Assembly (NCBI RefSeq): GCF_024718545.1
Contig: NZ_JAMXDB010000001.1
Coordinates: 1 to 64,000, forward strand
DNA: 64,000 nucleotides
Direction: 5' to 3'
From: Weissella fangxianensis
Lineage (GTDB): Bacteria > Bacillota > Bacilli > Lactobacillales > Lactobacillaceae
Positions 34,406 through 48,469 of the stretch are shown piece after piece. Numbering within the stretch: position 1 is the stretch's first letter; each line of letters begins with the position of its first letter. The translations under genes and the position numbers were made by a program. The notes below the pieces were generated by a model. The model was not told the DNA's origin. It worked only from the letters and a program-made list of their open reading frames with translations, and ran no database searches.

Positions 34406-35938
34406 ATGGATTACCTAATTGGAGTTGACTTAGGAACCACATCAACAAAAGTTGTCCTATTCGATACTAAGGGACATGTTATTGCAAGTGCTAATAAAGG
34501 TTACAAGTTATACCGTGATGCACCCGATATGGCTGAAGAAGATCTAGATGAAATTTGGGAAGCGTTTACTGATGCGATGGCACAAGTAACTCGTACTGCC
34601 AAGGATGGTAAAATTTTGGGTGTTTCATTTAGTTCAGCAATGCACTCATTGATTGCCTTTGATGCTGACTGGAAGCCTTTGACTCGTGTGATTACGTGGG
34701 CAGATGCACGTGCTGTTAAGTACACAGAGCAATTAAAGTCAAGTGGTGTTGGTCAAGAGATTTATAGTAAGACTGGAACACCAATTCACCCAATGGCTCC
34801 TTTGTCAAAACTTCTTTGGTTAAAGAATGAGCAAACTGATATTTACAACAAGGCAGCTCATTATTTGGGTATTAAAGAATACTTGTTTAACCGTCTATTT
34901 GGCGCTAACAAGATGGACTACTCAATTGCATCAGGAACTGGTTTGTTTAATATCTTTAATTTAGATTGGGATGAACAAGCATTATCAGTTACTGGTGTTG
35001 CTAAGGATCAATTACCAGAACCTGTGGATCCATACACTATTGAAAAGGGCATGAATCCACAATATGCTGCTGAAATGGGCTTGGATGTCGATACGCCATT
35101 TATTTATGGTGCAGGGGATGGTCCATTATCAAACCTTGGTGTTAACGCTATTCAACCAGGTGTTGCAGCCGTTACGATTGGTACATCAGGAGCTATCCGT
35201 GTCGTTACAGATGCACCAAAGATCGATCCAAAGGGACGTACATTTACATACGCCTTGGACAAGGACCACTGGGTTGTTGGTGGACCTGTTAATAACGGTG
35301 GTGATGTCTTCCGTTGGGCACGTGACAACATGTTCGATTCAGAAAAGTCAACGGCTGAATTATTAGGGGTTGATTCATACGATCTCTTAACTGAAATCGC
35401 CTCAAAGATTCCAGCTGGTGCTGACGGGTTGTTGTTCCACCCATACTTAGGTGGCGAACGTGCCCCAATTTGGGATGCTAATGCGCGTGGTTCATTCTTT
35501 GGTTTGACACACAACCATACGCGTGCTCACATGGTACGCGCTGTCCTTGAGGGTATTATCTTTAATATCTACATGGTATCGCTAGCACTTGAAGAGGTTG
35601 TTGGTGACTTATCTGCTATCCAAGCAACTGGTGGTTTTGCTCGTTCACCATTGTGGCGTCAAATGGCTGCGGATATCTTTGAGCAACCAGTCACTGTGCC
35701 AAAGGCCTTTGAATCAGGTGCCTTAGCAGCAACTGTGATGGCACAAAAGGCTTTGGGATTGGTTGATAACCTAGAAGTTATTGGTGATATGATTGGTGAA
35801 GCAAACACTTACCAACCAAATCCAGATAACTATGAGGCTTATCGTGAATTGACACCAATTTTCATTCGTCTATCTCGTCAATTACAAACAGAGTACAAGG
35901 CAATTGCTGATTACCAACGTACCCATATTGACAAATAA
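34406..35938 (+). CDS. gntK: Gluconate kinase (FGGY family)
   Basis: This 510-aa kinase phosphorylates D-gluconate to 6-phosphogluconate, which enters the phosphoketolase pathway in heterofermentative LAB. The FGGY layout is complete: IGVDLGTTSTKVVLFD at the N-terminus, the substrate-discriminating THPMAPLSKL-type stretch (here GTPIHPMAPLSKLLW, about 126) as in gluconokinases, GAGDGPLSNLG (about 234) and ATGGFARSPLWRQM (about 412). The RBS is GAGAGG. The matching permease gntP is encoded 11 kb away rather than next to it, an unusual separation. A terminator follows. Confidence 0.93.
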   Translation: MDYLIGVDLGTTSTKVVLFDTKGHVIASANKGYKLYRDAPDMAEEDLDEIWEAFTDAMAQVTRTAKDGKILGVSFSSAMHSLIAFDADWKPLTRVITWADARAVKYTEQLKSSGVGQEIYSKTGTPIHPMAPLSKLLWLKNEQTDIYNKAAHYLGIKEYLFNRLFGANKMDYSIASGTGLFNIFNLDWDEQALSVTGVAKDQLPEPVDPYTIEKGMNPQYAAEMGLDVDTPFIYGAGDGPLSNLGVNAIQPGVAAVTIGTSGAIRVVTDAPKIDPKGRTFTYALDKDHWVVGGPVNNGGDVFRWARDNMFDSEKSTAELLGVDSYDLLTEIASKIPAGADGLLFHPYLGGERAPIWDANARGSFFGLTHNHTRAHMVRAVLEGIIFNIYMVSLALEEVVGDLSAIQATGGFARSPLWRQMAADIFEQPVTVPKAFESGALAATVMAQKALGLVDNLEVIGDMIGEANTYQPNPDNYEAYRELTPIFIRLSRQLQTEYKAIADYQRTHIDK

Positions 35939-36152: not shown

Positions 36153-36181
36153 TTGACTTTCAAAAATCATATCAGTAAAAT
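36153..36181 (+). promoter_or_regulatory. Promoter of the c-di-GMP polysaccharide operon
   Basis: TTGACT (36153-36158) and TAAAAT (36176-36181) are 17 bp apart, leaving a leader of about 36 nt before the first gene. No c-di-GMP riboswitch is visible. Confidence 0.82.
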
Positions 36182-36223
36182 TACTTTACCAGATAATATA
36201 TAGAGAGATATGAGAATTATAAA

Positions 36224-37315
36224 ATGACATTACATCAATTTTATAACATTGGTATACTTATACCTGCTTTTAACCCTGATGACAAATTGATTTATTTATT
36301 AGATGACATACACCAACAAACAAAATTTAATCAAAAGATTGTTATTGTTGATGATGGATCACTAAATCAAGACATTTTTGAACAAATTACGACCAAGTAT
36401 GGTCAAAGTATTGTTGTCCTACACCACGATAGTAATCAAGTGAAGGGGCAAGCATTAAAAACCGGTTTCCAATATTTTTTGCAACACTATCAATATATTA
36501 ACGGTGTTGCAACAATTGATGCGGATGGGCAACATAAAGTGAGTGATCTTCGAAACTTAGAAGATAATTTTATAAAACATCCTGAAGCATTGATTATTGG
36601 TGGCCGTACTTTTGACGAAGCAGTACCTTTAAGAAGTAGATTGGGTAATCTGGTAACCAATCAATTAGTGAAGGTATTGACTGGTATCCGAGTACAAGAC
36701 ACACAAACTGGACTCCGAATTATTCCAATCAATTATGTAAAATTATTAATCTCATTCCCGACTAACCATTATGAATTCGAATTTGATATGTTATTGGCGA
36801 CTAAAAAGGCGGGGATTGAACTTGTAGAAGTTCCCATTCAAACGGTGTATTTGGATAATAATGCGACGTCGCATTTTAGGGTTATCCATGATTCATTAGC
36901 TATTTACAGTCGCTTTTTTAAGTTTGCGTTTAGTGGTGTCAGTTCGTTTGTCATTGATATTGTTAGTTTCTATGTGTTGGTACATTTTATGATGACATAT
37001 ACTCATGATTTTATTATATGGGCAACGCTTATTTCACGCGTCATTTCAGGACTGTTTAATTATGTCATGAATAAACAGTTTGTTTTTAGTACCCAAACTC
37101 GGCAAGCTCTTTGGAAATATAGCGGATTATTTCTTTGCCAATTGGTCGCCTCTGGTTTATTAACGACAATTTTTAGTTATCTAACAGCGTTAAACCAGGC
37201 AACTTTTTGGATTAGTTGCATTAAGATAATGGTTGATCTTGGCCTGTTTTTGATTAGCTATCAAATTCAAAAAAGATTCGTATTTCGGGAGGCCAAGGAT
37301 ACTAATGCAGCTTAA
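36224..37315 (+). CDS. Glycosyltransferase family 2 fused to a GtrA-like membrane domain
   Basis: This 363-aa two-domain protein has an N-terminal DPM1/DPG-synthase-like GT2 domain with IGILIPAFNPDDKL, IVIVDDGS (about 43) and ATIDADGQHK (about 104, DxD). It also has DTQTGLRI and YEFEFDMLLATKKAG further on, typical of polyprenyl-phosphate mannosyl/glucosyl transferases. A C-terminal GtrA domain of four membrane helices follows (about 228-350). Proteins of this layout make and help flip undecaprenyl-phosphate sugars for surface glycan modification. It overlaps the next gene by 11 bp. The RBS is weak (GAGATATGAG). Confidence 0.9.
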   Translation: MTLHQFYNIGILIPAFNPDDKLIYLLDDIHQQTKFNQKIVIVDDGSLNQDIFEQITTKYGQSIVVLHHDSNQVKGQALKTGFQYFLQHYQYINGVATIDADGQHKVSDLRNLEDNFIKHPEALIIGGRTFDEAVPLRSRLGNLVTNQLVKVLTGIRVQDTQTGLRIIPINYVKLLISFPTNHYEFEFDMLLATKKAGIELVEVPIQTVYLDNNATSHFRVIHDSLAIYSRFFKFAFSGVSSFVIDIVSFYVLVHFMMTYTHDFIIWATLISRVISGLFNYVMNKQFVFSTQTRQALWKYSGLFLCQLVASGLLTTIFSYLTALNQATFWISCIKIMVDLGLFLISYQIQKRFVFREAKDTNAA

Positions 37316-39278
37316 ACTTCATCAAAAAGTATTATATGGATTAGCGGTTATATTAACGGTTATTTACCTGATTTGGCGAACCTTTTTCACGTTGCCATCG
37401 CATGATCACCTTGGTTCATTTGTCGTTGCTATATTACTCTTGCTAAGTGAAATATTGTCTAATATGACTGCGTTTATTATTATTTATTTCCGTGTGAACT
37501 TTGATAAAAATAAGAATCAACAACTAGATTTACCTGATATTGCTCCTGAGATTGTCTGGCCGGATATAGATGTCATTATTGTGACACATGAAGAAGATAT
37601 TGAATTATTGCGAAAGACAATCAATGCCGCGGTGAATATGACGCCCGGCCATCATCAAAAAGTTAATATTGTGATTGCTGATGATGGTAATCGACCATCA
37701 GTGAAGTTATTGGCTGAAGAATATCAGGTAATGTATATTGATATGCCTGAAGGTAATCAGGCGGCAAAAGCAGGTAATATTAATCACGCTTTAAAATTTA
37801 TTCAGGCACCGTTATTGGTGGTGTTTGATGCAGATATGATTCCCTTTCAAACTTTTTTGCTACATTCGGTGCCTTATTTTATTCAAAATAAACTGATGCA
37901 AGAGCAAGATAATCAAGTGAAATCCTTGGGCTTTTTACAAACACCTCAAAGCTTTTATAATGCTGATATTTTTCAGTATAATTTGTTTTCAGAAAAAACA
38001 GCGACCAATGAACAGGACTTCTTTTCACGGGATATCAATATCCTAAATGGCTCAAATGGGGCAGCAATTTTTACCGGATCCAATGCCGTGTTTGCCAGAG
38101 AAGCGATTGATGCAGTTGGTGGTTTTCCTGAAAAGACATTGACCGAAGATTTTGAACTAGGCGTGCGCATTAATTTAGCTGGCTACATCAGCTTGGCAAC
38201 GAGTGAACCAGAATCAAGTGGGATGACACCAATGGCCATCAAGAGTGTTGTTAAACAACGTGTTCGCTGGGCACGGGGTGTTATCCAAAGTGCTCGGAAT
38301 TTACACATATTGACTAACCGTCAATTACCATGGGTGAACCGTTTGATTTTGATCAATGTGTATCTATATTGGTGGTCTTTTGCAAGAAGAATGTTGTTTA
38401 TCTTGGCACCCATCTTATTTGCTCTTTGGCATATTAAATTAGTCGATGTTAATTTTTGGCTATTACTTATACTATGGGCGCCAGGATATCTGTTACTACA
38501 TTATGTGTTAGGGAAAAGTTATACTAACATACGTGGTGAGCGGTGGGGTGAAATACATGAAACCTTTTTTGCACCATATCTTTGGCTGCCTGTTCTTTTG
38601 GAGACCCTGGGGATTAAGCAGAAGAAGTTTAAGGTGACCAATAAAAATAATGGACAATCAACACAGGCAATCCTTTATGGTATCCCGTATTTAGCACTGT
38701 GGTTGCTTGATGTTTGGGCACTAATTTCATTTAATTACGGTAAATGGGGCTCTGAAATTATGTATGGGGCGATTATCAGTTTTTGGCTGCTTACCCATTT
38801 GATTAATTTAACATTTAGTTTGTATATCGCATGGGGTCGCCAGATCAATCGTCAATCAGAGCGTTTTGCCCGATCAGTTAAAGGGTCTATACAAGTCAAT
38901 GACGAGACAAATATACCGATAACCACAATTGATATATCTGATAAAGGTTTGTTATTTAGACAATCTGAAAGTATTGGTTTGGAAATTGGACGCGAAGTGG
39001 TTGTTGAACTTTATCATGCTGGCAAAACGATTACATTCAGTGGGGTTATTCGGATGAGATATGATGACAATACAAGATATGGGCTACAGATTACCTATAT
39101 TACCTCAGATAATCAAAACAAGTTATATCATCTTATTTACAATGGTAGAAATACGTTACTACCTAGGGAAAAAGATTCTTGGATGACCATTTATGATGCA
39201 CTGTTATTTAATGTTGGTTATCACTTGAAAAATAGCTGGCGAAATATCCAGTCATATAGAAGGATGAAAGAAAAATGA
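37305..39278 (+). CDS. BcsA-like processive glycosyltransferase with C-terminal PilZ domain
   Basis: This 657-aa membrane synthase extrudes a polysaccharide from cytoplasmic nucleotide sugars. Two N-terminal helices lead to a GT2 core with all catalytic markers: ADDGN (about 125), FDADM (about 174), FTGSNAVFAR, TED (280-282) and QRVRW (318-322). Several membrane helices follow (about 345-510). The tail is a PilZ domain with both c-di-GMP contacts, RQSER (516-520) and DISDKG (543-548), so allosteric activation by c-di-GMP is expected. No BcsB or cellulase partner is nearby, so the product need not be cellulose. Confidence 0.92.
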   Translation: MQLKLHQKVLYGLAVILTVIYLIWRTFFTLPSHDHLGSFVVAILLLLSEILSNMTAFIIIYFRVNFDKNKNQQLDLPDIAPEIVWPDIDVIIVTHEEDIELLRKTINAAVNMTPGHHQKVNIVIADDGNRPSVKLLAEEYQVMYIDMPEGNQAAKAGNINHALKFIQAPLLVVFDADMIPFQTFLLHSVPYFIQNKLMQEQDNQVKSLGFLQTPQSFYNADIFQYNLFSEKTATNEQDFFSRDINILNGSNGAAIFTGSNAVFAREAIDAVGGFPEKTLTEDFELGVRINLAGYISLATSEPESSGMTPMAIKSVVKQRVRWARGVIQSARNLHILTNRQLPWVNRLILINVYLYWWSFARRMLFILAPILFALWHIKLVDVNFWLLLILWAPGYLLLHYVLGKSYTNIRGERWGEIHETFFAPYLWLPVLLETLGIKQKKFKVTNKNNGQSTQAILYGIPYLALWLLDVWALISFNYGKWGSEIMYGAIISFWLLTHLINLTFSLYIAWGRQINRQSERFARSVKGSIQVNDETNIPITTIDISDKGLLFRQSESIGLEIGREVVVELYHAGKTITFSGVIRMRYDDNTRYGLQITYITSDNQNKLYHLIYNGRNTLLPREKDSWMTIYDALLFNVGYHLKNSWRNIQSYRRMKEK

Positions 39279-41146
39279 TGATGGCAGCAATTCTGTTTGC
39301 GTTAGCTTTACTAGGATTTCAGCAGTTAGTGATGTTCCTTAAGGGCAGTCAATATTTATCATGGTTGCTTGCAATTATTGTGCAAAGCTTAGTTGTTTAT
39401 ATTTTCGCACTAGCCCATCAGTTACGAATAGGTATTTGGCTAACGTTCATTAGTGGGCTAATGCTGGTAATAATTTTTTTCGTGGTTAGGCTAAAGCAAC
39501 GACAGTTACATCAAATAAAGTTACATCTATTTGATGTATGGTTTATGATCTTTGGTATCTTAATCAGCCTAACTTTGTTGAAAAGCCCGTTGATTCATTA
39601 TGACAATTTTACCCATTGGGCAACCATGGTAAAGTATTTAACTTTCGTCGGTGAACTGCCAGATGCCCAACAAAATTTGGTGACGTTCACTGATTATCCA
39701 CCAGCTACAGCGATGTTTTTAACCTATTTATCGACGATTGTAGGTTATCATGAAGGCAGTCTACTGGTCGGGCAATTTGTGATTATTGGTGCGGGTCTAT
39801 ATGCCTTATTTGGGGTACTTCGCGATCAACGACGTGCCTTAATAACGGCAGGCTTGGTGTTCATGTTGACGCTGATTAATATCTTTAACATCGCCATTAG
39901 ATTTAATAACTTGTTAGTTGATTGTCTGATAGCTATTTTAGCGATAGCAGGTGTTAGTGCTGTCTATATTCATCAGAATCAACGTGGTTGGCAAATTGTT
40001 AGTACAAGTTTGATTGTCAATTTTTTATTATTGACCAAAAGTTCGGCGATGTATTTTGCAATCTTGATATTAATTTATTTTGCCATAGCTAATTTGGCAA
40101 AGATTAAAAATAAGGCGCCTAAATGGCGTGAGGTCATTAAAACGACCGCAGTAATTATCTTGACGACTGCTGGAAGTTTTATTGGTTGGTTACTGTGGCG
40201 TGTTCATGTCGCTAATGTGTTTACGAAAGTATCCAAACATGCTTTAAATTTGCAAGCCTATCAAAGCCAAGTTGATCATGAATCTGCAAATACACAAAAA
40301 CTAATTGTTCAAAAATTTATTAGTTACATGACTAATACGGACACGTTATTTTTTCGAGGGATCCTATTAGTTAATATTGCCTTATTACTGACTTGGTTAG
40401 TGATTCGTGTTGGTCTTCATAAAAGAAGTTATAGTTTGCTTATGTTAGCAATCACTGATTTAGTTACAGCCATCTATGTGATTGGTGTACTGGGAATGTA
40501 TGTCGTTTCAATGCCATATGCTGAAGTCATCAATTTGGCTGGTATTGATCGTTACTTATCAACGACTGTCATATTTAGCATTTTATTAAGTGGTGTCATT
40601 ATTTTAAATGATATTGACCGAGCATCGTTTCAACCAATTGTTGCGCAACGAAATTCAGCTAGTTTTGCCAATTTACAAACAAAACAGGTGTATCAAGAAA
40701 GTACTTTTTTCTTGCTTATCTTTTCAAGTGTTCTGATGTTGTCAGAGATTAATGGTATTAATTTTTTGAATCAAAAGATGAACGATGCATTGCCGATAAA
40801 GATGCAGCAGATGGTGCCTAATCAAAATACGTTTAACCACAAACGTATTTTACTTGTTGATGCGAAAGCACAAGACGTTAACAATGCTTATGCAAACTAT
40901 GTGGGTCGTTATTATTTATTTAGTGATCATGTGGACGGGCGTGAAGCATTTGATGTCTCATCCAAGCAATTTCAGTCAATTATTCAGGGGTATCAATATG
41001 TTGTTGTGCCTAGATACCATCAAACTTTTTCAAAATTAACAAGCAAAACTTATCATGAACATGTGCGTACGGGTATTTATAAGGTAACTAATAATGGTAT
41101 AAAACCGTTATCGACTGCAAACTACTTAGCTGAGATGAATAAATAA
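39275..41146 (+). CDS. Polytopic membrane protein, GT-C-like (putative lipid-sugar-dependent glycosyltransferase)
   Basis: This 623-aa protein has about twelve membrane helices in its first 500 residues and a C-terminal soluble region of about 110 residues (from about QKMNDALPIK), probably extracellular. The first extracellular loop contains SPLIHYDNFTHWATMVKYL and FTDYPPATAMF. An acidic residue in this place followed by a conserved YPP stretch resembles GT-C enzymes that use undecaprenyl-phosphate sugars. The family is inferred, not recognised with certainty. It overlaps the synthase gene by four bases (ATGA). It may decorate the polymer with sugar supplied by the GT2-GtrA protein. Confidence 0.7.
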   Translation: MMMAAILFALALLGFQQLVMFLKGSQYLSWLLAIIVQSLVVYIFALAHQLRIGIWLTFISGLMLVIIFFVVRLKQRQLHQIKLHLFDVWFMIFGILISLTLLKSPLIHYDNFTHWATMVKYLTFVGELPDAQQNLVTFTDYPPATAMFLTYLSTIVGYHEGSLLVGQFVIIGAGLYALFGVLRDQRRALITAGLVFMLTLINIFNIAIRFNNLLVDCLIAILAIAGVSAVYIHQNQRGWQIVSTSLIVNFLLLTKSSAMYFAILILIYFAIANLAKIKNKAPKWREVIKTTAVIILTTAGSFIGWLLWRVHVANVFTKVSKHALNLQAYQSQVDHESANTQKLIVQKFISYMTNTDTLFFRGILLVNIALLLTWLVIRVGLHKRSYSLLMLAITDLVTAIYVIGVLGMYVVSMPYAEVINLAGIDRYLSTTVIFSILLSGVIILNDIDRASFQPIVAQRNSASFANLQTKQVYQESTFFLLIFSSVLMLSEINGINFLNQKMNDALPIKMQQMVPNQNTFNHKRILLVDAKAQDVNNAYANYVGRYYLFSDHVDGREAFDVSSKQFQSIIQGYQYVVVPRYHQTFSKLTSKTYHEHVRTGIYKVTNNGIKPLSTANYLAEMNK

Positions 41147-41180
41147 TATGCTCTGAAATAGTGAATAATAGAGGCATGGG

Positions 41181-42347
41181 ATGGAAAATATAATGGAAAT
41201 AACAGTCATTATAATTACTTCATTGTTAATTATAATGGGGATTGTTGCAATCGATTACTCAATTAGAACCTGGATCGATAAAGTTAACGGATCGGTAGTC
41301 CTAAAAAGGTGGTTAATTTGGTTAAGAGTGGTGATACCAATTGTGGCCATTGTGATGATTGATTTAAATTACTCAGATGCGACTGATATTTGGGGTCGAT
41401 TAACTGGTTACAGCGTTGAGATATCGATTGCCTGTTATTTTATTGTGCATGTACATGACAAATTATTTGTGTATGCAACGGATTGTATGGCGCTTGTTGT
41501 CATGTTATTTAATATCAGCGTGTATTTTCCGGCGGTACCAAATTATCAAGATTTTGGTAGGCTACTTCTTTCGTTATTTGGTGTGTTATTAACTATATTT
41601 ATAAATCATCTGATTTATAGTTACGATGTTTTTAAAATCAGGTCGCGTGTTCGATTTTTTGTCATCATTTGTTTGTATAGTATGTCGTGGTGGAGTATTT
41701 TATCGCTTAATCAAACATTTTCTGGTTATGATCTGCTAGCACAAATGGTTGCTAGTATCGTTAATATTTCGATTATTTTGTCGTTGGACTTAGTTTTTAG
41801 AAAACAGCTTGAGTCGTTGACCCATGAGATTGATGCAGATTTTTTAACGCAAATTGGTAACCGTAAAGCATTTGAATTTGCGTTTCAACAACTGTTTAAT
41901 AAGTATGAAAAAAGACAGCATGATTGGTATCTTGTGATGCTGGATATCGATGATTTTAAACAAATTAATGACCAATTTGGTCATATAGTCGGTGACACAG
42001 CATTGCGTCGTTTATCGAAAGAGGTTAATCTACAGTTATATGATCTACAATTAGATGCTTCGTTTTTCAGAATAGGCGGGGAAGAGTTTGCTATTTTGTT
42101 GACGCATATTGATGAATCGCATTTACCGCAAATTATTGAACAACTCAAGACAACTGTTGGTCGAATTGATATTACAACTAATGGTGAGCAGTCTGTAAAG
42201 ATATCTATATCGATAGGAGTTGCTAAGTATCAGCATCATGATAATAGTGCTGCAGTGCTTTACGAAAGAGCAGACTCGTATTTATACGCAGCTAAAAAAG
42301 ATGGCAAAAATTCAGTGAACTATGAAGGTAATAAGTTAATAAAATAG
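41181..42347 (+). CDS. Membrane-bound diguanylate cyclase (GGDEF)
   Basis: This 388-aa protein makes c-di-GMP from two GTP. Six or seven membrane helices occupy residues 5-205 with no recognised sensor fold. The GGDEF domain follows: DADFLTQIGNRKAF (about 217), LDIDDFKQINDQFGH (metal site, about 254), RIGGEEF with the active-site GGEEF at 299-303, and SISIGVAKY. Where the inhibitory I-site RxxD would sit, the sequence is QLDA with no Arg, so product inhibition is unlikely. It lies 34 bp behind the GT-C-like gene, and a strong terminator follows. It presumably feeds the PilZ synthase in the same operon. Confidence 0.93.
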   Translation: MENIMEITVIIITSLLIIMGIVAIDYSIRTWIDKVNGSVVLKRWLIWLRVVIPIVAIVMIDLNYSDATDIWGRLTGYSVEISIACYFIVHVHDKLFVYATDCMALVVMLFNISVYFPAVPNYQDFGRLLLSLFGVLLTIFINHLIYSYDVFKIRSRVRFFVIICLYSMSWWSILSLNQTFSGYDLLAQMVASIVNISIILSLDLVFRKQLESLTHEIDADFLTQIGNRKAFEFAFQQLFNKYEKRQHDWYLVMLDIDDFKQINDQFGHIVGDTALRRLSKEVNLQLYDLQLDASFFRIGGEEFAILLTHIDESHLPQIIEQLKTTVGRIDITTNGEQSVKISISIGVAKYQHHDNSAAVLYERADSYLYAAKKDGKNSVNYEGNKLIK

Positions 42348-42364
42348 GGCATGTAAATGTCGAT

Positions 42365-42395
42365 ACCGCTAATCTAATTAGATTGGCGGTTTTTT
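42365..42395 (+). terminator. Intrinsic terminator of the c-di-GMP polysaccharide operon
   Basis: ACCGCTAATCT (42365-42375) pairs with AGATTGGCGGT (42380-42390), followed by six T. It marks the operon end between the GGDEF gene and the bPH2 genes. Confidence 0.93.
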
Positions 42396-46966: not shown

Positions 46967-48469
46967 ATGTTCACAATGCTAACAGGATTATCAATTGACA
47001 AATCTACAGGACTGTATCAATGGTTGCTAAATGATTTTAATATTTGGCCATTTTTGATTCTAGTTCTTGGAATTGCCTTGTTGCTATTTTTTATCCTGAA
47101 GTTAAATGTTAATACCTTCGTGGCATTAATTATTACATCTATTTTAGTTGCCCTTGGTCTGGGTATGAACCCAGCCGGAATCGCCGATGCGTTGAAAGAT
47201 GGTATCGGTGGCACGATGGGTGAGCTGATCATCGTCTTTGGATTTGGATCGATGATTGGTCGTTTGGTTTCTGATTCTGGTGGTTCCTACCGTATTGCCA
47301 CAACGCTGATTAGAAAATTCGGTAAGAAGCGTTTGCAGTGGGCAGTTGCTGGTGCATCATTTATCATTGGTATTTCTTTGCTATTCGAAGTTGGACTAGT
47401 TGTTTTGATCCCAATTGTATTTACAATTGCGCTTGAAGCTGAAGTACCTTTGCTTTACTTGGGAATCCCAATGGCTGCAGCATTGTCTGCCGCTCAAGGG
47501 TTCTTGCCACCACAGCCATCACCTACAGCAGTTACTAATATTCTAGGTGCTAACATTGGTATCGTCTTAATGTATGGTATTGTTGTTGCCATCATTGCGA
47601 TGTTAGTTGCTGGACCATACTTCACTCGTGTTATTAAGAAGTTTGAGCCTAAAGCATTTAAGATTACCAAGAAGTTAGATGCTATTGGTGAAGTTAAGAC
47701 GTTTAAGTTAGAAGATACACCATCATTTGGATTGGCAATCACTACTTCATTGATGCCTGTTATCTTCATGCTTATTTCAACGATTTACACGTTGACAGTT
47801 AACGCTGGTAAGCAAGTTTACTCAGGTACGGTTGGTGATGCCTCATGGAAGGCTATGTCAGCTGCCACTCAAAGTGGTTACGTTACTGATCCATCAGTAT
47901 TAGACAAGATTGTTGCTATGTTTGGAAACCCTGTAATTGCCATGGTCGTGGCTATGTCATTTGCGATCTGGTCAATGGGACCAAAGCAAGGTCGTACAAT
48001 GGGTGAAGTTGGTGACTCAATGGGTAATGCCTTGAAGTCAATCGCTAACCTATTGATGGTTATCGGTGGTGGTGCCGCTTTCAAGGGAATCTTGACAGCC
48101 GGTGGTATCTCTGATGCAATTGCTGACGCTTTCTCAAACACGTCATTGTCACCAATTATCTTTGCTTGGCTTATTGCTTTGATTTTGCGTGTGTCAGTTG
48201 GATCAGCAACAGTCGCTGGTTTGACAACAGCCGGAATCGTTGCACCATTGGTAGCAAGTCAATCAGCTGTTGATCCAGCCTTTGTTGTCTTGGCTATTGG
48301 TGCCGGTTCAGTTGGTATCTCACACGTTAACGATGCTGGTTTCTGGATGTTCAAGGAGTTCTTCGATTTGGACGTCAAACAAACTTTGAAGATTTGGACG
48401 GTACTAGAAACATTGATTTCTGTTGTCGGCTTGATCGTTATCTTAGCTTTGTCAGCAATCTTTTCATAA
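46967..48469 (+). CDS. gntP: Gluconate:H+ symporter, GntP family
   Basis: This 500-aa membrane permease has about 12-14 helices. Conserved stretches are DGIGGTMGELIIVFGFGSMIG (about 80), the amphipathic LPPQPSPTAVTNILGANIG (about 180) that marks the GntP family, and AGSVGISHVNDAGFWMFKE (about 445). It imports gluconate or a related sugar acid. Its natural partner gntK lies 11 kb upstream. The RBS is AAGAGG. A terminator follows at once, so it is monocistronic. Confidence 0.93.
   Translation: MFTMLTGLSIDKSTGLYQWLLNDFNIWPFLILVLGIALLLFFILKLNVNTFVALIITSILVALGLGMNPAGIADALKDGIGGTMGELIIVFGFGSMIGRLVSDSGGSYRIATTLIRKFGKKRLQWAVAGASFIIGISLLFEVGLVVLIPIVFTIALEAEVPLLYLGIPMAAALSAAQGFLPPQPSPTAVTNILGANIGIVLMYGIVVAIIAMLVAGPYFTRVIKKFEPKAFKITKKLDAIGEVKTFKLEDTPSFGLAITTSLMPVIFMLISTIYTLTVNAGKQVYSGTVGDASWKAMSAATQSGYVTDPSVLDKIVAMFGNPVIAMVVAMSFAIWSMGPKQGRTMGEVGDSMGNALKSIANLLMVIGGGAAFKGILTAGGISDAIADAFSNTSLSPIIFAWLIALILRVSVGSATVAGLTTAGIVAPLVASQSAVDPAFVVLAIGAGSVGISHVNDAGFWMFKEFFDLDVKQTLKIWTVLETLISVVGLIVILALSAIFS

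Follow-up and report, generated by a model that had tools for sequence, protein, structure and literature searches.

A Weissella operon pairing a predicted c-di-GMP-gated polysaccharide synthase with a putative transmembrane glycosylation module and a single recognised cyclase

In Lactobacillus acidophilus, the dgcA-pdeA and gts genes link enzymes of cyclic diguanosine monophosphate (c-di-GMP) metabolism to a BcsA-like glycosyltransferase and to exopolysaccharide; there a separate protein, the degenerate EAL protein PdeB, acts as receptor, the cyclase lies in another operon with an active phosphodiesterase, and the excerpted text of the paper mentions no PilZ domain for GtsB (PMC6123363). In L. 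johnsonii a branched glucan depends on a GtrA flippase and a GtrB-like transferase, encoded by the separate EPS1 genes 241 and 242; the authors reported no other glycosyltransferase in the vicinity, and the excerpted text does not use the term c-di-GMP (PMC7117936). According to the excerpt of a 2023 review, lactic acid bacteria had not been found to make cyclic dinucleotides besides cyclic diadenosine monophosphate (c-di-AMP) (PMC10243994), and a survey that covered the exopolysaccharide clusters of 106 Lactobacillus genomes contains PilZ and c-di-GMP, on a word search, only in its reference list (PMC6843789). Here we analyse a 64,000-nucleotide stretch of Weissella fangxianensis (the window; contig NZ_JAMXDB010000001.1, positions 1 to 64,000), in which four genes spanning 36224-42347 form one packed set that, judged from sequence and structure models, brings together a BcsA-type synthase with a PilZ domain, a fusion of a glycosyltransferase family 2 (GT2) domain with GtrA, an enzyme of GT-C fold and the one GGDEF protein recognised in the genome. 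The full best explanation is a c-di-GMP-gated exopolysaccharide machine, to which we give a probability of about 70%. The genes are as follows.

36224..37315, + strand: gene 1 (363 aa), predicted from Pfam to be a GT2 enzyme (DPMS/ArnC/GtrB-like) fused to a GtrA transmembrane domain
37305..39278, + strand: gene 2 (657 aa), predicted BcsA-type processive synthase with a C-terminal PilZ domain (phmmer, Pfam, motifs)
39275..41146, + strand: gene 3 (623 aa), putative GT-C-fold membrane glycosyltransferase (AlphaFold2 model)
41181..42347, + strand: gene 4 (388 aa), predicted GGDEF diguanylate cyclase with about five hydrophobic segments (Pfam)

All four open reading frames are intact and lie on one strand where a preliminary description of the window had placed them, with overlaps of 11 nt between genes 1 and 2 and 4 nt between genes 2 and 3, and a gap of 34 nt between genes 3 and 4; the source genome (G000) is a 1.97-Mb Weissella assembly in 77 contigs, 99.94% complete. 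The same core of GT2-GtrA, synthase and GT-C genes is carried by plasmid pKB290-1 of L. brevis KB290 (LVISKB_P1-0027, LVISKB_P1-0028 and the next gene), where the synthase and the GT-C protein are 55.5% and 38.1% identical to those of the window and the PilZ motifs (RKTER, DTSEGG) are intact; the plasmid differs in having no GGDEF gene in the stretch examined. The KB290 paper, in its excerpted text, describes two GT2 genes as probably serving a wall polysaccharide and names no link to c-di-GMP; it reports that all pKB290-1-bearing strains aggregate and form rough colonies, that a strain without pKB290-1, -2 and -3 does neither and survives less well in simulated gut juices, and that a strain without only pKB290-2 and -3 survives like its parent, the authors pointing to the two glycosyltransferases (PMC3609814). 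The preliminary description, which supposed that the polymer may be new, was incomplete: as a locus the three-gene core is not new, for it lies on a plasmid that curing had already tied to aggregation. A later paper is said to connect the pKB290-1 operon with exopolysaccharide. In a literature search of titles and the starts of abstracts, with most subscription journals outside its reach, we found no description of the four-gene operon or of c-di-GMP control of the core.

Gene 2 aligns with solved BcsA over residues 11-567 (phmmer, 2.5e-61), matches GT2 synthase families in Pfam (best 1.4e-18), and carries a PilZ domain (PF07238; 4.9e-10) whose 40.1 bits lie above the curated cut-off of 22.5. 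Its motifs are listed here.

37827..37838, + strand: DADM, the DxD catalytic motif, invariant (12/12)
38142..38150, + strand: TED catalytic motif, invariant (12/12)
38256..38270, + strand: QRVRW, with the QxxRW pattern invariant (12/12)
38628..38645, + strand: FKVTNK (FxVTxK), which aligns with FNVTAK of solved BcsA, F.VT.K being present in every aligned row; we take it to be the gating-loop motif of BcsA
38850..38864, + strand: RQSER (RxxxR), predicted c-di-GMP-binding PilZ motif (motif match)
38931..38948, + strand: DISDKG (DxSxxG), predicted c-di-GMP-binding PilZ motif (motif match)

Both patterns that characterise PilZ, RxxxR and [D/N]xSxxG, are thus present, and the earlier view of gene 2 as a BcsA-like synthase with an intact PilZ tail is borne out by the Pfam match together with the catalytic and PilZ motifs. 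Each motif quoted in support of that view and of the cyclase (DADM, TED, QRVRW, RQSER, DISDKG and GGEEF) occurs once in its protein. The preliminary description had named the lack of a PilZ match and a hyaluronan-type GT2 as outcomes that would count against it, and neither occurred: PilZ stands above the curated cut-off, and BcsA was the only solved synthase matched over the length. We rejected a plain hyaluronan-type synthase on the absence of hyaluronan synthases among the eight solved sequences matched at E <= 0.001, of which BcsA was nearest. A plain cellulose-type synthase was rejected too, for although BcsA is the nearest solved family, the NCBIfam BcsA equivalogs were missed (TIGR03030, 299.2 of 699.1 bits; NF008558, 262 of 992 bits). 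Because of that missed cut-off gene 2, which appears BcsA-like in its working, should not be named a cellulose synthase. No BcsB partner was matched among the four genes, to which the BcsB search was confined.

Gene 1 matches GT2 (1.4e-15) and GtrA_DPMS_TM (1e-9) in Pfam, and its structure model (predicted local distance difference test score, pLDDT, 77.9) most resembles ArnC (VIA Z 22.2, 269 aligned, 4.8 A), followed by dolichyl-phosphate mannose synthase (DPMS; Z 21.1, 305 aligned, 7.9 A, residues 6-356) and GtrB (Z 20.0, 240 aligned, 3.8 A). Soluble GT-A enzymes come close behind, with Z up to 19.6, so the acceptor is not settled by fold alone. The Pfam domains and the leading ArnC and DPMS rows agree with the preliminary assignment as a lipid-sugar maker with a GtrA domain, and the likely task of gene 1 is to make and flip a sugar linked to polyprenyl phosphate. 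For gene 3 neither Pfam (E <= 0.1) nor NCBIfam gave a match, so that a Pfam check proposed for all four proteins recovered GT2, GtrA, PilZ and GGDEF and assigned gene 3 to no family. The AlphaFold2 model of gene 3 (pLDDT 81.1, built from 12 sequences) matches ArnT (5f15; VIA Z 17.0, 409 aligned, 5.5 A), and its best 43 entry rows (Z >= 7.1) are GT-C transferases or complexes that hold one, except GPI transamidase chain U; the next row reaches only Z 5.7. By its model gene 3 is a GT-C fold, as had been proposed from the letters, and it contains a candidate catalytic residue.

39596..39607, + strand: HYDN (residues 108-111 of gene 3), with D110 as candidate GT-C catalytic aspartate, invariant (12/12)

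In the model HYDN follows the helix at residues 85-102 and so falls within the first loop of the GT-C core, where enzymes of this fold carry their catalytic acid. By analogy, ArnC and ArnT would give a fair picture of the gene 1/gene 3 pair, in which a sugar is loaded onto a lipid phosphate inside the cell and used outside.

Gene 4 contains a complete GGDEF domain (PF00990; 1.1e-36, 126.5 bits) preceded by about five hydrophobic segments in a simple hydropathy scan. Its GGEEF and the neighbouring conserved residues are intact in an alignment judged by eye, and the match and motif uphold its designation as a GGDEF cyclase.

42075-42089, + strand: GGEEF of gene 4, present once in the protein

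The RxxD I-site is absent, its two positions being occupied by Q and A, and therefore no feedback inhibition is expected through that site. The genome holds one GGDEF match, gene 4, and one Pfam PilZ match, and gave no match to EAL at E <= 0.001 or to HD_5/HD-GYP; a second PilZ receptor may exist, as the Pfam model misses some divergent PilZ domains. With no EAL protein recognised and PilZ on the synthase itself, a separate degenerate EAL receptor was not found here. The preliminary description went astray in calling c-di-GMP signalling rare in Lactobacillales: GGDEF occurs at E <= 0.001 in 202/397 Lactobacillaceae genomes (190 above the curated cut-off) and EAL in 183/397 (179 above it), and rarity in the group is ruled out by the GGDEF count.

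Synthases with erased PilZ motifs provide a natural test of the gate. In five genomes of genus g17 (L096, L097, L098, L099 and L104) the PilZ region of the synthase has neither RxxxR nor DxSxxG, and the DDx, DAD, TED, QRTRW and FKVTxK motifs are retained; four of the five have no GGDEF even at E <= 1, whereas other g17 genomes do have it. Among the other 48 genomes with the GT-C gene, 44 carry both motifs and four (G281, G294, G319 and G363) combine RxxxR with an altered second motif. GGDEF is thus present in 48/48 RxxxR-keeping genomes versus 1/5 erased ones (Fisher, 1.7e-5), a p-value that overstates independence because the erased synthases form one clade and the erasure was probably one event. 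The joint loss of motifs and GGDEF, with the catalytic motifs kept, is as a c-di-GMP gate predicts, and absence of GGDEF in 4/5 genomes without the motifs versus 0/48 others strengthens the earlier proposal that the synthase is linked to c-di-GMP. The erased g17 synthases are probably c-di-GMP-independent, to judge from their sequences.

The core recurs across the order. We identified the GT-C gene in 53/395 Lactobacillaceae genomes, representing 11/40 genera, and in 40/370 genomes drawn across Lactobacillales, representing 19/79 genera. It adjoins the synthase at 49/53 Pfam-PilZ sites in Lactobacillaceae, the misses being G054 and G202 (distant PilZ synthases), G376 and G300, with another gene order; the lack of a conserved order, which the preliminary description had named as a refutation, therefore did not occur. 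GT2-GtrA lies directly upstream of the synthase at 40/49 sites (split genes counted), and at some loci a single synthase is followed by two GT-C copies. For other families of the order 30 genomes gave a match, and we examined 20 regions from them, chosen mostly for the better scores; at least two belong to assemblies that also stand among the named genomes (C. jeotgali, S. vicugnae): synthase and GT-C occur together in 16 of the 20, all 16 with both PilZ motif patterns, and the misses are L134, L135 and L136 (distant GT-C without synthase) and L130 (broken). In several lineages the core has a GGDEF gene next to it, and the sensor part that goes with GGDEF varies: it is PAS in Streptococcus and 5TMR-LYT in Carnobacterium. 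Flanking genes, judged from open reading frame lengths, vary between species, and the core is present on two plasmids predicted to be conjugative, from L. brevis KB290 and L. plantarum BK-021 (L108, L109), from both of which it follows that the core moves as a unit.

Some neighbouring arrangements were noted in the same survey. On the two plasmids a recombinase gene lies upstream of the core, and the GT-C gene is annotated as a hypothetical protein or an ABC transporter permease. Upstream of the core operon, L058 and L061 (genus g5) carry one more GT-C homologue, encoded on the opposite strand, and L072 and L075 (genus g17) have a second, distant PilZ-synthase arrangement with EAL and GGDEF directly behind and no GT-C gene. 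A short contig labelled as a Lachnospiraceae metagenome-assembled genome (L041 1-5347) holds a Streptococcus-like copy of the operon, possibly by bin contamination.

The GT-C and GGDEF genes of W. sagaensis, W. bombi and Carnobacterium jeotgali are separated by an EAL gene, that of W. sagaensis being found both by a home-made profile and by an EAL search of 13 named genomes, which contained GGDEF in 13 and EAL in 7. The window cyclase is 99% identical to that of W. thailandensis and, over full length, 35% identical to that of W. bombi and 33% to that of W. sagaensis; the next best after these reaches 29% over partial length. In a tree of 39 selected synthases, from which the split W. thailandensis synthase was left out, the synthase of the window pairs with that of W. 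bombi (99/92), and W. sagaensis branches next to the two (100/100). Because the window is nested among these EAL-carrying species, one loss of EAL is simpler than two gains, and the window lineage has probably lost the operon's EAL phosphodiesterase gene. The preliminary description missed both that the genome is without a recognised phosphodiesterase and that sister species keep EAL in the operon. GGDEF without EAL is found in 7/53 GT-C genomes, all of the window's genus; outside it, the same holds for two genomes of S. equinus and one of S. vicugnae, each with a single GGDEF match and with a GGDEF gene directly before the operon. A count that tied PilZ presence to EAL absence in Weissella (7/8 Pfam-PilZ genomes without EAL) was rejected as an artefact and not used, because the Pfam PilZ model misses the synthases of W. 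bombi and W. sagaensis (G267, G382), which carry the motifs and have the EAL gene; G267 and G382 were assigned to these species because their coordinates and E-values are identical.

In the mechanism that we propose, the membrane cyclase would, on some cue, make c-di-GMP, which would bind RQSER and DISDKG and, as in BcsA, open the FKVTNK gating loop, so that the main chain could be polymerised and extruded. The GT2 domain would load a sugar onto undecaprenyl phosphate and GtrA would flip it, and outside the cell the GT-C enzyme would pass it to the chain as it emerges, on the pattern of the ArnC/ArnT and GtrB/GtrA/GT-C schemes. The product may be a cell-bound, probably branched polymer that promotes aggregation, a role suggested by L. 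brevis, which no longer aggregates once cured of the plasmid with the core. Since the lineage lost its EAL gene and has no other recognised phosphodiesterase, the signal would probably be switched off by ending synthesis, by growth dilution or by an unrecognised hydrolase. The preliminary observation is confirmed and the mechanism largely supported; we infer the polymer, the cyclase activity and the side-sugar addition.

Several observations weigh against the proposed machine. The best Foldseek E-value for gene 3 is only 1.8e-3, and aggregation in KB290 follows a whole plasmid, of 37 genes by the table in the excerpted paper, not the operon alone (PMC3609814). A GGDEF gene is found at only 7/49 Lactobacillaceae sites (within the stretch examined), so the pairing with a dedicated cyclase is lineage-specific. 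One of the five motif-erased genomes retains two GGDEF proteins, the four full-length erased synthases fall into a single clade (100/100) within one genus, and GGDEF is kept alongside an altered second PilZ motif (DLSDTA, DMADHG) in the two W. viridescens genomes and in G294. In the near-identical operon of the nearest relative, W. thailandensis JCM 10695 (L036 6920-13044), the synthase and GT-C genes have one frameshift each, so the trait may be dispensable, and in W. viridescens DSM 20410 (L035) the GT2-GtrA and GT-C genes are split. Comparison of the synthase and cyclase parts between the window and W. thailandensis gives 12 nonsynonymous codon differences against 4 synonymous ones, with no sign of constraint.

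The alternative that survives best concerns only the switch-off step: a phosphodiesterase of an unrecognised family, or a c-di-AMP enzyme of the GdpP/DHH type, would remove c-di-GMP, and the circuit would not be phosphodiesterase-free. GdpP can act slowly on c-di-GMP, and our search of the genome, an assembly in 77 contigs, covered the EAL and HD_5 models only. We consider this a serious contender, somewhat short of an even chance.

It is unlikely that genes 1 and 3 glycosylate teichoic acid or another wall polymer, as YfhO/CsbB/GtcA systems do, and are merely co-transcribed with the synthase. The Gram-positive systems named in the excerpt of one paper do modify lipoteichoic acid, wall teichoic acid or secondary cell wall polysaccharides (PMC13390465), and a 2021 review of such systems contains, on a word search, neither exopolysaccharide nor cellulose (PMC8035078). 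The GT-C gene nevertheless keeps to the synthase, travelling with it on plasmids and across families of the order, and the doubled GT-C copies behind a single synthase likewise count against this reading; the first of these papers, in the same excerpt, even puts forward a GtrA cluster of Actinoplanes as the modifier of an exopolysaccharide (PMC13390465).

Still less probable is that gene 4 is not an active cyclase for this synthase, which would then be constitutive or respond to another ligand, as perhaps in the genomes without PilZ motifs. Retention of the catalytic motifs in the erased synthases makes activity without c-di-GMP possible, and L. acidophilus DgcA without its transmembrane part had no cyclase activity in vitro, according to the excerpted paper (PMC6123363); the apparently intact surroundings of GGEEF in gene 4 speak for activity, however, as does GGDEF in every RxxxR-keeping GT-C genome against about half of the family. 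Least probable of all is a decaying operon that shed its phosphodiesterase early on and whose trait has fallen out of use, a reading that draws on the damaged genes of the relatives and the codon differences given above, but all four window genes are intact and all parts compared show 31 synonymous and 27 nonsynonymous differences, the nonsynonymous ones falling short of the roughly 3 to 1 expected of drift (a rule of thumb).

Returning to the c-di-GMP-gated machine, we see an evenly balanced case for a broader claim, that an unrecognised and widespread Lactobacillales machine exists in which a PilZ-gated synthase without BcsB has its chain decorated outside by its own GT2-GtrA and GT-C enzymes, together with a one-cyclase, phosphodiesterase-free circuit here and, separately, in W. 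viridescens and the S. equinus group, where the circuit is read from one GGDEF above cut-off and no EAL, the HD-GYP search not having extended to those genomes. The operon gives c-di-GMP a definite, testable target in food-associated bacteria, and one recognised cyclase, one recognised PilZ receptor and no recognised phosphodiesterase make a minimal circuit for studying gating, sensing and removal with little cross-talk. If the GT-C module does decorate the chain, it would offer a route from a synthase to branched polymers for food and material polysaccharides.

The operon is bracketed by the following candidate signals.

36153..36181, + strand: candidate sigma-70 promoter, TTGACT-17-TAAAAT, 10/12 consensus, 42 nt upstream of the first ATG
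42365..42390, + strand: intrinsic terminator, with a stem of 11 pairs, a loop of 4 and a T-run

The terminator claimed earlier is a good hairpin with its T-run. The promoter claimed with it is plausible in its consensus, yet promoter-like sites in the region (32, versus a mean of 37.4 in shuffles) are no more frequent than chance. No c-di-GMP riboswitch or other known RNA was matched in Rfam at gathering score between 30000 and 48000. The G+C content of the operon is 35.5% versus 40.1% in the rest of the window, and over the 6.5-kb region the window shares 98.6% identity with W. thailandensis JCM 10695. Genes for an FGGY-family sugar kinase (34406-35938) and a GntP permease (46967-48469) enclose the operon and, with it, two genes for proteins with a bacterial PH domain, one for LemA and one for a DUF2207 protein; insertion may have split a gluconate locus here.

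Set beside known systems, the locus combines known kinds. Gene 2 resembles BcsA with PilZ in its architecture and in its DxD/TED/QxxRW, FxVTxK, RxxxR and DxSxxG motifs, and differs in scoring 299 bits where NCBIfam sets its CelA cut-off at 699, in having IFTGS where solved BcsA has FFCGS, and in its partners, which are GT2-GtrA and GT-C in place of any BcsB or BcsZ among the four genes. Genes 1 and 3 share with the transmembrane glycosylation systems (CsbB/GtcA/YfhO, GtrA/GtrB/GtrX) and with ArnC/ArnT a maker of lipid-phosphate sugar, a GtrA domain and a GT-C transferase, but those systems serve teichoic acid, O-antigen or lipid A, whereas the module of the window adjoins a processive PilZ synthase. 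The operon is thus a BcsA-type PilZ synthase joined to a transmembrane glycosylation module, accompanied here by a single recognised cyclase and no recognised phosphodiesterase.

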